From the NCBI GenBank assembly GCA_016212295.1, contig JACRGO010000210.1, forward strand, positions 1-42,332: 42,332 nucleotides of DNA. Direction: 5' to 3'. A program made the position numbers and the translations under genes. Source of the DNA: Nitrospinota bacterium. Its GTDB lineage: Bacteria; Nitrospinota; Nitrospinia; JACRGO01. Numbering within the stretch: the stretch's first letter is position 1; each line of letters starts with the position of its first letter. Positions 39,954-42,332 of the stretch are shown here, piece after piece. The notes below the pieces were generated by a model, which saw nothing but the letters and a program-made list of their open reading frames with translations, was not told the DNA's origin and searched no databases.

Positions 39954-40541
39954 TTATAACTCCCACCCCTTGAACACTGCTTCCAGTTCCTCCATGAATC
40001 TTTTCAGCGAATCATCAAGCTTTTTAATATTTAGCATATCCATGTGTTTTATAATCTCTTCCGCGTGTTCCATACCGCCTAGAAGCGGCGTACCGCCCGC
40101 TTTCCTAACAGCTTCACGCAAAAGGAATTTATAACGGTCTTTTTCGCATTTCTGGTCCGGCGCATCACACCCCTTGCCAAAGACCTGCTTAAAGGCCTGA
40201 GAATCTATTAAAAGCCAGCGTTCCACATGCGGATCTGGAACGGCGTGGACAAAGGGTATATGTCTGAGCTTGTCAGGAATCTTCGCGTCTATCTCGCTTC
40301 GTTTGTCGTTATGGCCTTTGCAATTGGCGTCAATGGCCGCCACAATTGCATCTGGGGAATAAGTTTGTCCACGTTCCACATTTTTCAGGTACTTTTCCAG
40401 TTCTGCAAGAGCGCGGCCCTTTCCTTGCCTGGCGCTGAGAGGCATCACCTGAACCGACCCCTTTGGCGCCAGTTTTATAATAAGGGCCTTGATCACTGCT
40501 TCATGACCGGAGTCTTCACAAAACAAGGCTATTTTACGCAT
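39954..40541 (-). CDS. TOPRIM-like (DUF4276/RloB-like) partner of the AAA ATPase
   Basis: 195 residues. The N-terminus RKIALFCEDSGHEAVIKALI has the acidic start of TOPRIM-type domains (Glu9, Glu14). A central AIVAAIDANCKG (Asp71, Asn73) corresponds to the DxD motif, with Asn in place of the second Asp. The PDPHVERWLLIDSQAF region (Glu107) is the P.hE.WLL block seen in DUF4276 and RloB families. Such small proteins are encoded next to OLD/AAA_21-type ATPases in several defence systems, where they cut nucleic acid. The start is ATG 40541, 8 bp inside the ATPase gene, with GGGGA upstream, so translation is coupled. The assignment to a TOPRIM fold is inferred from motifs; the changed DxD may reduce metal binding. 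Confidence 0.65.
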   Translation of the reverse strand: MRKIALFCEDSGHEAVIKALIIKLAPKGSVQVMPLSARQGKGRALAELEKYLKNVERGQTYSPDAIVAAIDANCKGHNDKRSEIDAKIPDKLRHIPFVHAVPDPHVERWLLIDSQAFKQVFGKGCDAPDQKCEKDRYKFLLREAVRKAGGTPLLGGMEHAEEIIKHMDMLNIKKLDDSLKRFMEELEAVFKGWEL

Positions 40542-41829
40542 CAAGGTCCCCACGTAAAATCAACTCAGATGGGCTGGGCTCTTCATCATTAAGTCCTTTC
40601 TCAATGCCGGTCTCCCGGAATAGCCCTATTTCTGTAAATTTTTCGATTTTTGTGTTCCCTTCTTTTTTCCGGCAGACATAGAGTGATGCATTATCTATTA
40701 AATCCGGCAGAATGGGAGAATGGGTTGTAACTATGATTTGAGATTTATTTCCAGCCGTATTTTTCAAGTACTCCGCGATCATTCCAATGCGGCGAGGATG
40801 TATGCCGTTTTCCGGCTCCTCAAAGCAAATAACGGATGGACTGTCCTCACCGCCGCTGATGGATAAAAGCCCAAGGACCCTCAGTGTGCCTTCGGATAGC
40901 AAACGAGAAGGAATCTTTACGCCGTTTTCAATAACGGACAATTCCACCTCGCCCGTTTTTGTGTCAATTATGGTTTCAACATTGTCTATCGCCGGAATAA
41001 TGCTGTGCAAGGCGCGTTCAATGGCCTTGAAACGCCCGTCATCCTTATTCTTTAGTGTATGCAAGTAAGCGGACAGCTCTTCGCCCATCATGCCTATATG
41101 AATGACTTCCTTTGTTGGGTTAGCCGCGCGCATCCGTTCCCGCGGTTCAAAATAAAAAAACTGCCAGTTTTCCATTTCATGTTTTAGCGCGGTCAGGTGA
41201 GGATAATGCGGTGGGTAAAGCGGCATGGAAAGAATAGTATGGTCAATGCCGATATCATAAAATGTGGGGTGAGCCTGTCCTTCCATCCGGAGACTTAATT
41301 TGTTTCCGGATTTTTCAAGAAAGGCGTTACGGCTTTCTTTTACGTCAAGATTTTTTTTAAGCGCGCAGAGTCTTTCATTTTTGACACGGAGAAATCCTTG
41401 CTTGGGCATGAGTTCCACTTCCAGATCATAGCGAAGCAGTTTTTCCTGTATGAAATTATCCTTTTTTCCATTGCCGTTTTTTGATTCCAGGCCTTTTCTC
41501 ATGCCGACAATTTCGGCGTTTACTTTATTTATAATATTTTCTGATAGTTCAACATCAACGGATAGCGTGAAACTGGCGGAGTCTTGAGAAATAATGCCTT
41601 CAATGCCGTTTTCATGAAAACTGAATGACTCAATCGGCCTGCCACGGTAAGGGGCATCAAATGCATTTTTTAGAGTCTTACTGGAGGCAATCCTGGACAA
41701 AAGCTGCATTGCATCGAGAAAATTGCTCTTACCGGCGGCATTGGATCCAAAAATGACTGAAAGTGGATTTAATTCCGTCTCAAAGTCATATAATGATTTA
41801 TAGCCGTTGATTCTAACGCGTCTTATCAT
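40534..41829 (-). CDS. OLD/AAA_21-type ATPase of a probable two-gene defence module
   Basis: 431 residues. The N-terminus IRRVRINGYKSLYDFETELN is typical of RecF/OLD-like ATPases. Walker A is GSNAAGKS (28-35), the region to about 230 is a long divergent insert, then come LLSEGTLRVLGLLSI (ABC-like signature), CFEEPENGIHP (Walker B) and VTTHSP (His switch). This is the AAA_21/AAA_15 layout shared by OLD, AriA of PARIS, RloA and similar ATPases. No nuclease domain is fused; the 195-residue TOPRIM-like protein is encoded next with overlap. A good promoter (41892-41920) and a GGGGGAAAA ribosome site are present. The pair is next to tRNA-Val, a common site for accessory genes. Sensor target and effect are unknown. 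Confidence 0.83.
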   Translation of the reverse strand: MIRRVRINGYKSLYDFETELNPLSVIFGSNAAGKSNFLDAMQLLSRIASSKTLKNAFDAPYRGRPIESFSFHENGIEGIISQDSASFTLSVDVELSENIINKVNAEIVGMRKGLESKNGNGKKDNFIQEKLLRYDLEVELMPKQGFLRVKNERLCALKKNLDVKESRNAFLEKSGNKLSLRMEGQAHPTFYDIGIDHTILSMPLYPPHYPHLTALKHEMENWQFFYFEPRERMRAANPTKEVIHIGMMGEELSAYLHTLKNKDDGRFKAIERALHSIIPAIDNVETIIDTKTGEVELSVIENGVKIPSRLLSEGTLRVLGLLSISGGEDSPSVICFEEPENGIHPRRIGMIAEYLKNTAGNKSQIIVTTHSPILPDLIDNASLYVCRKKEGNTKIEKFTEIGLFRETGIEKGLNDEEPSPSELILRGDLDA

Positions 41830-41891: not shown

Positions 41892-41920
41892 ATTTTAAAT
41901 GACAAGAGCAATAATGACAA
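41892..41920 (-). promoter_or_regulatory. Promoter of the ATPase/TOPRIM-like pair
   Basis: On the minus strand TTGTCA (41915-41920) is 17 bp from TAAAAT (41892-41897), each a 5/6 match. It lies 63 bp before the ATG. A second TTGTCA overlaps the spacer. Confidence 0.6.
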
Positions 41921-42023: not shown

Positions 42024-42098
42024 GGGCGATTAGCTCAGCGGGAGAGCGCTGCCTTCACACGGCAGATGCCGCAGGTTCAATCCCTGCATCGCCCACCA
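42024..42098 (+). tRNA. tRNA-Val (anticodon CAC)
   Basis: 75-nt cloverleaf with encoded CCA. Acceptor GGGCGAT pairs with ATCGCCC, D arm GCTC/GAGC, anticodon stem CTGCC/GGCAG with loop TTCACAC (anticodon CAC at 42056-42058, reading GTG), T arm GCAGG/CCTGC with loop TTCAATC. Discriminator A at 42095, then CCA. Confidence 0.97.
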
Positions 42099-42197
42099 CT
42101 TTTGACATAAATATCTTTATTTTTCAATAAGTTATAAGTGTGCCGTCAAAAATACCAATGTCCGTGGGATGTCCTCGGGTTAGTTTTTTATTTTTCC

Positions 42198-42233
42198 CGT
42201 TAGCCAGTAGCTAACGCAACACTTACTACTGGC
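42198..42233 (+). promoter_or_regulatory. Two mutually exclusive hairpins before a partial gene
   Basis: CGTTAGC-CAGTA-GCTAACG (42198-42216) is a perfect 7-bp stem. GCCAGTAG (42203-42210) can instead pair with CTACTGGC (42226-42233), an 8-bp perfect stem that uses the same bases. The arrangement is that of a switch or attenuator in a leader, but no ligand class is recognised and there is no U tract after either stem. Confidence 0.35.
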
Positions 42234-42280
42234 GAAAGGTGACGTCTTCATGAATGCCTATTGAATGGGAGTAGAATATC

Positions 42281-42332
42281 GTGTCAAAAAAGGATAATCA
42301 AGTAAAACCGTCATTCAGAGACAGAGCTCCAG
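42281..42332 (+). CDS. Start of a gene running off the window
   Basis: GTG at 42281 opens a frame VSKKDNQVKPSFRDRAP to the window end, with GGGAG 11 bp upstream (42268-42272). The 17 visible residues are basic and not recognisable. The leader with alternative hairpins (42198-42233) is just upstream. Confidence 0.4.
   Translation, partial: MSKKDNQVKPSFRDRAP

Follow-up and report, generated by a model that had tools for sequence, protein, structure and literature searches.

A putative stand-alone copy of the candidate anti-phage system HEC-01, an ABC ATPase and DUF4276 gene pair, in a Nitrospinota bacterium

HEC-01 is listed in PADLOC-DB 2.0.0 as Hma-embedded candidate 01 (Payne et al. 2024 preprint, as cited in PMC12988326). 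According to PMC12988326, which cites the preprint of Payne et al., several of the Hma-embedded candidates (HECs) were antiviral in assays. In the PARIS system, AriB is a two-metal ribonuclease that cleaves tRNA (PMC12409363). The two-metal site of BpOLD consists of E400, D455 and D457 for metal A, and of E404, T506 and E508 for metal B (PMC6755086). D457 contacts the metal via water, and cleavage is not discernibly affected by the single mutation D457A (PMC6755086). TsOLD has S478-x-E480, and P2 OLD has D541-x-E543 (PMC7049728).

Here we analysed a gene pair in the window, which is the whole stretch of 42,332 nucleotides of contig JACRGO010000210.1. The preliminary description of this DNA proposed an overlapping pair of an ATPase gene and a TOPRIM-like gene. 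Both open reading frames are located at that place on the minus strand, and the overlap is exactly 8 bp when the small gene is read from its ATG. The features are as follows (window positions, strand, assignment and basis).

42024-42098, plus strand: tRNA-Val(CAC)
41892-41920, minus strand: promoter-like TTGTCA-17-TAAAAT, located 5' of the ATPase gene (agreement with the consensus only)
40534-41829, minus strand: ABC/AAA_21 ATPase, HEC-01A-like, 431 aa (ORF, Pfam AAA_21, PADLOC HEC-01A, AF2)
41725-41748, minus strand: Walker A, GSNAAGKS (alignment of relatives)
40879-40896, minus strand: ABC signature, SEGTLR (alignment of relatives)
40798-40824, minus strand: Walker B and D-loop, FEEPENGIH (alignment of relatives)
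40720-40722, minus strand: H-loop His370, TTHSP (alignment of relatives)
40534-40541, minus strand: 8-bp overlap of the last ATPase codons and the start of the small gene (identical length in the relatives L002 and L004-L009)
39954-40541, minus strand: DUF4276/HEC-01B-like protein with a predicted TOPRIM fold, 195 aa, predicted effector (Pfam, PADLOC, AF2)
40515-40517, minus strand: TOPRIM Glu9 after beta-1, FCEDSGHE (no variation in the clade; 90% or more in the DUF4276 sample)
40323-40331, minus strand: D71-A72-N73, DxN replacing DxD (neither D nor N varies within the clade; D71 at least 90% family-wide, position 73 variable)
40221-40235, minus strand: DPHVE, residues 103-107, with E107 as the proposed metal-B Glu (E107 unchanged in all 19 divergent DUF4276 rows)
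40128-40130, minus strand: Lys138, YK (invariant in the clade)

According to the profile matches and the gene order, the pair is a stand-alone copy of the catalogued candidate anti-phage system HEC-01 and a new HEC-01 member. The ATPase prefers the HEC-01A model over the other defence ATPase models. Its best PADLOC model is HEC-01A (PDLC04184, E = 3.6e-62), the next model of another type is PDC-M07A (1.2e-37), and AriA gives 1.1e-29. All seven aligned ATPases of the clade match HEC-01A. The small protein matches HEC-01B weakly (1.7e-5), and the HEC-01B model PDLC04194 matches 8 of the 15 members of its alignment (best E = 8.1e-69). The two genes are adjacent in one operon, with the same gene order as in HEC-01. 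Thus, the earlier impression that no known pair matches did not hold: HEC-01A and HEC-01B match both proteins, and one relative is embedded in an Hma locus as described below.

Among 84,980 species genomes scanned, the small protein has eight relatives, found in Betaproteobacteria, Spirochaetota, Anaeromyxobacter, Planctomycetes and Cyanobacteria. The closest paired relative (L002) is from a betaproteobacterial metagenome genome, and its ATPase and small protein are 54% and 42% identical to those of the window. The L002 pair sits exactly between hmaB (9.8e-232) and hmaC (2.8e-276). This Hma embedding applies to L002, not to the window copy. In the cyanobacterium G511 (L044:8929-12831, complete contig), the pair is located directly downstream of hsdR-hsdM-hsdS, and a second, different HEC-01A/HEC-01B pair (ATPase and canonical DUF4276) follows in tandem. 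HmaC was not found in the genome of the window copy (90.5% complete), and no PADLOC model matched the four genes neighbouring the pair. The window copy lies outside any defence island. The same genome contains a second DUF4276 gene (L030, G000:C13:10008-10247), which is truncated (107 aa, ...INDSPVTAPSKR...) and has no upstream ATPase. This gene is probably what is left of a further HEC-01-type pair.

In the list of open reading frames, the small gene starts at the GTG at 40553. The ATG was preferred here, being conserved in the relatives. The ATPase gene is directly upstream, with an overlap of 8 bp, in each of the seven relatives whose two starts are readable (L002 and L004-L009); the eighth relative, L003, is cut or fused and consists of the C-terminal part only. 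As the same 8 bp recur in each of the seven, the overlap is not a chance feature, and the operonic coupling proposed earlier is supported. The ATPase C-terminus is conserved across the relatives as RG-[DW]-[LF]-D-[GA]. In the window, the codons of the ATPase C-terminus RGDLDA contain a Shine-Dalgarno-like GGGGA ahead of the small gene's ATG. Since both the start codon and the G-rich stretch resembling a ribosome-binding site lie within conserved C-terminal codons, we infer that the translational coupling of the two genes is written into the sequence. An own promoter had also been proposed. A consensus-like -35/-10 site at 41920-41892 scores 10/12, at a distance of about 63 bp from the ATPase start on its upstream side. 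With 11 occurrences versus 5.3 expected, sites of this kind are frequent here, and an own promoter of the ATPase gene is therefore plausible at most.

The ATPase contains the full motif set, GSNAAGKSN, SEGTLR, FEEPENGIHP and TTHSP. As every motif is present and conserved in the relatives, the ATPase looks intact. The Pfam match to AAA_21 (1.8e-29) agrees with the AAA_21-type ATPase of the preliminary description. The AF2 model (pLDDT 88.3) shows an SMC/Rad50-head fold. According to Foldseek, the matches include the retron Eco7/Ec78 ATPases (1.5e-14) and TsOLD (8.8e-12), and by structural alignment the SMC/Rad50 heads give Z 23.

The small protein belongs to DUF4276 (PF14103) with E = 5.5e-7 and 30.5 bits, barely above the gathering cut-off of 30.2, and 14 of the 15 aligned relatives match this family. 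A DUF4276/RloB-like block had been proposed from the sequence; the DUF4276 part is retained, whereas neither RloB (PF13707) nor DUF4435 (AriB) was matched in Pfam at E up to 1. The AF2 model based on the 15-row alignment has a pLDDT of 90.5 and shows the order beta-alpha-beta-alpha-beta-alpha-beta. The predicted core is a four-strand Rossmann-like alpha/beta structure that matches the OLD TOPRIM domains. In a second look with a structural aligner against the PDB, PH0156 was on top (Z 10.7). The C-terminal region of BpOLD (6nk8) followed with Z 8.7 over 164 residues at 4.2 Å, and TsOLD (6p74), XccOLD (6njv) and AriB gave Z 8.1, 7.4 and 6.2. As Z of 7-8 can be the background of a common fold, weight is placed on BpOLD and TsOLD, on their aligned lengths and on the motifs. 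Foldseek alone gave no match to the PDB at E <= 0.001 for this protein, phmmer found nothing among the PDB sequences, and only matches with E of 0.02-0.08 were obtained against PHROGs. Matches of the alignment profiles to PPR-repeat and integrin sequences of the PDB were rejected as spurious, low-complexity matches. According to the OLD domains near the top of the matches, the aligned length and the conserved acids, a TOPRIM-like fold is predicted with high confidence. The preliminary description had named a structure prediction lacking this fold as counter-evidence; the prediction was examined, and this outcome did not occur.

We consider it probable that the pair is a horizontally acquired solo HEC-01, a split OLD/PARIS-type module in which an ATPase sensor and a nuclease effector serve phage defence. 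An ABC ATPase with a TOPRIM-fold protein is also the logic that was recognized at the outset. By analogy with AriB of PARIS and with the OLD nucleases, the ABC ATPase would be an oligomeric, ATP-gated sensor and holder that keeps the TOPRIM subunit inactive. A phage cue would alter the ATP state or the contacts. The released DUF4276 TOPRIM subunit would then act as a divalent-metal nuclease effector, and would cut DNA or RNA such as tRNA. The nuclease activity of the small protein, the gating by the ATPase and the role in phage defence are all inferred in this way.

In the small protein, E9, D10, E14, D71, N73, D103-P-H-V-E107 and K138 are the invariants of the near clade, and only E9, D71 and E107 remain at 90% or more across 19 divergent DUF4276 proteins. 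Compared with the Glu plus DxD metal site of a TOPRIM nuclease, Glu9 and Asp71 are present, the second Asp is Asn73, and E107 fits the metal-B Glu of OLD by motif. H105-x-E107 would correspond to T506-x-E508 of BpOLD, S478-x-E480 of TsOLD and D541-x-E543 of P2 OLD, and Lys138 is possibly the analogue of Lys562 of OLD; the assignments of E107 and K138 are based on motif spacing alone. The Asn at the second DxD acid (IDANCKG) is present as was first described. As a special feature it is not supported, however, since position 73 varies freely across DUF4276. After D-x, the near clade has Asn, the commonest form has Tyr, Phe or Leu (D-Y-Y-G, D-F-Y-G and D-L-Y-A), and others have Asp or Glu; this variability refers to the rows read, and the automatic motif reader missed some of the 30 broader DUF4276 loci. 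Degeneration or damage as the origin of Asn73 was ruled out, because the Asn is invariant in the near clade and the position is free to vary across the family. As D457 of BpOLD is water-bound and its single mutant cleaves normally, the DxN motif is compatible with nuclease activity, and is proof of neither activity nor loss.

The hallmarks of the clade are DxN, DPHVE, the C-terminus RG-[DW]-[LF]-D-[GA] and the fixed 8-bp overlap. With these, the clade could be a distinct split-OLD sub-type, whose TOPRIM effector would use an altered metal site and whose substrate or trigger would be unlike those of AriB and OLD; it would work both solo and inside Hma or type I RM operons. We regard this as possible and rather unlikely. 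Quite unlikely, in our judgement, is a catalytically dead TOPRIM pseudo-enzyme, in which the DUF4276 protein regulates or docks and the ATPase does the work. In line with a dead site, all clade members have Asn at the second DxD acid, and most of the DUF4276 proteins read from the broader family have an aromatic residue or Leu there. However, Glu9, Asp71 and Glu107 are nearly invariant over very divergent DUF4276 proteins, as for a working metal site, and the retention of three acids is not expected in a dead protein. The second Asp of BpOLD touches a metal-bound water only, and the unaffected cleavage by D457A (PMC6755086) also speaks against this explanation.

A toxin-antitoxin-like addiction module, in which the ATPase restrains a TOPRIM toxin and the pair serves selfish maintenance instead of phage defence, is distinctly improbable as well. 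The coupled expression would fit such a module, Pfam labels AAA_21 as 'putative AbiEii toxin, Type IV TA system', and AriA is termed an antitoxin in PDB titles. On the other hand, the link of the relatives to restriction and Hma loci favours defence, and both roles are compatible with each other.

The horizontal acquisition of the solo HEC-01 is indicated by its distribution and composition. The near clade is present in 1/77 genomes of the phylum, 1/398 genomes of another phylum and 4/299 genomes of a cyanobacterial order, and DUF4276 in the wide sense is present in 11/77 genomes of the phylum and 50/398 in another phylum. The GC3 values of the pair are 0.44 and 0.50, versus 0.56-0.74 in 15 other genes of the window. 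The occurrence of the clade in only one of the 77 phylum genomes and a GC3 lower than in any tested neighbour show that the pair was acquired horizontally and is not a housekeeping locus. This agrees with the mobile module proposed earlier, and the vertical conservation that would have contradicted it was looked for in the distribution and did not occur. Vertically inherited housekeeping (DNA repair) genes are highly improbable: the ATPase head is SMC/Rad50/RecF-like and the archaeal OLD protein Cran1 serves the cell cycle, not defence (PMC12796447), but the clade is rare (above), its GC3 is deviant, and close relatives lie inside Hma and type I RM loci.

The tRNA neighbour had been taken as a further sign of a mobile module, a view that is weakly supported. 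The tRNA-Val does adjoin the pair, and a dispersed repeat lies beyond it. As an integration site, however, the tRNA-Val was rejected; no integrase was seen. The pair is on the wrong (5') side of the tRNA and an att-like repeat is absent (the longest match of the tRNA elsewhere in the window is 11 bp), so that tRNA-targeted integration is unsupported. The dispersed repeat occupies the right end of the window (42193-42332) and starts about 95 bp after the tRNA-Val. At least 13 further copies, 88-100% identical, are present in the same genome, often at contig ends. Probably this is the terminal part of a transposable element at which the assembly broke off, and thus mobile DNA is nearby. The small protein had no match among plasmids, phages and IMG/VR, so nothing points to its being carried by the sequenced mobile elements searched. 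In the same-genus genome G001, xseA is followed by a 2559-aa ORF (L016:872-8551), the pair is absent and the synteny is broken. An empty site is therefore not demonstrable there, and the flank downstream of xseA is variable between the two species. The arrangement at window:35538-36476 and L011 also differs. A speB-like agmatinase gene adjoins xseA in the same-genus genome; in the window, a FlhG-like ATPase gene and an HTH/DnaJ-like gene lie between the two.

The name DUF4276 was not found in a search of 5.39 million open-access papers, and Pfam assigns no function to the family. The present analysis links it to a predicted effector fold of the TOPRIM/OLD type and to a nearly constant ATPase partner. 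Glu9, Asp71 and Glu107 can be named as conserved acids for mutation, and with the solo copy, two genes in a compact unit, HEC-01 can be probed outside the Hma system.

Compared with PARIS (AriA and AriB, OLD class 4), the ATPase and TOPRIM genes are likewise separate and side by side, the AriA models match the ATPase (1.1e-29), and AriB is a structural match of the small protein (Z 6.2). However, HEC-01A scores far better, and the small protein is a DUF4276 protein of 195 aa, whereas AriB has about 305. The likeness to AriB is in the fold only, with no DUF4435 match at E up to 1 and no AriB model matched in PADLOC. OLD class 1/2, including GajA of Gabija, shares the ABC ATPase and the TOPRIM domain, and its Glu / DxD / x-x-Glu layout of the active site would correspond by motif. 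Here, two genes replace the one fused protein and DxN replaces DxD, and no GajB helicase is encoded among the flanking genes (xseA, flhG-like, tRNA). In the case of MADS, the NCBIfam model MAD3 matches the ATPase (6.3e-45) and MAD4 matches the small protein weakly (0.011), but neither comes near its curated cut-off (154 versus 420 bits for MAD3 and 15.8 versus 160 bits for MAD4), and no other MADS genes are nearby. The Septu and retron PtuA ATPases are the nearest Foldseek matches to the ATPase fold; their partner is the HNH protein PtuB, not a TOPRIM protein, and there is no reverse transcriptase here. Identity with PARIS, RloAB, Gabija and MADS was thus ruled out by the lack of DUF4435, the lack of RloB (PF13707), the unfused genes without a helicase, and the MAD3 and MAD4 scores below the cut-offs. 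The window copy differs from the described HEC-01 in standing solo between xseA and tRNA-Val and in its weak HEC-01B match. In common with HEC-01, both components match the models, the gene order is equal, and one close relative is located in the hmaB-hmaC gap and a cyanobacterial one in a type I RM operon.
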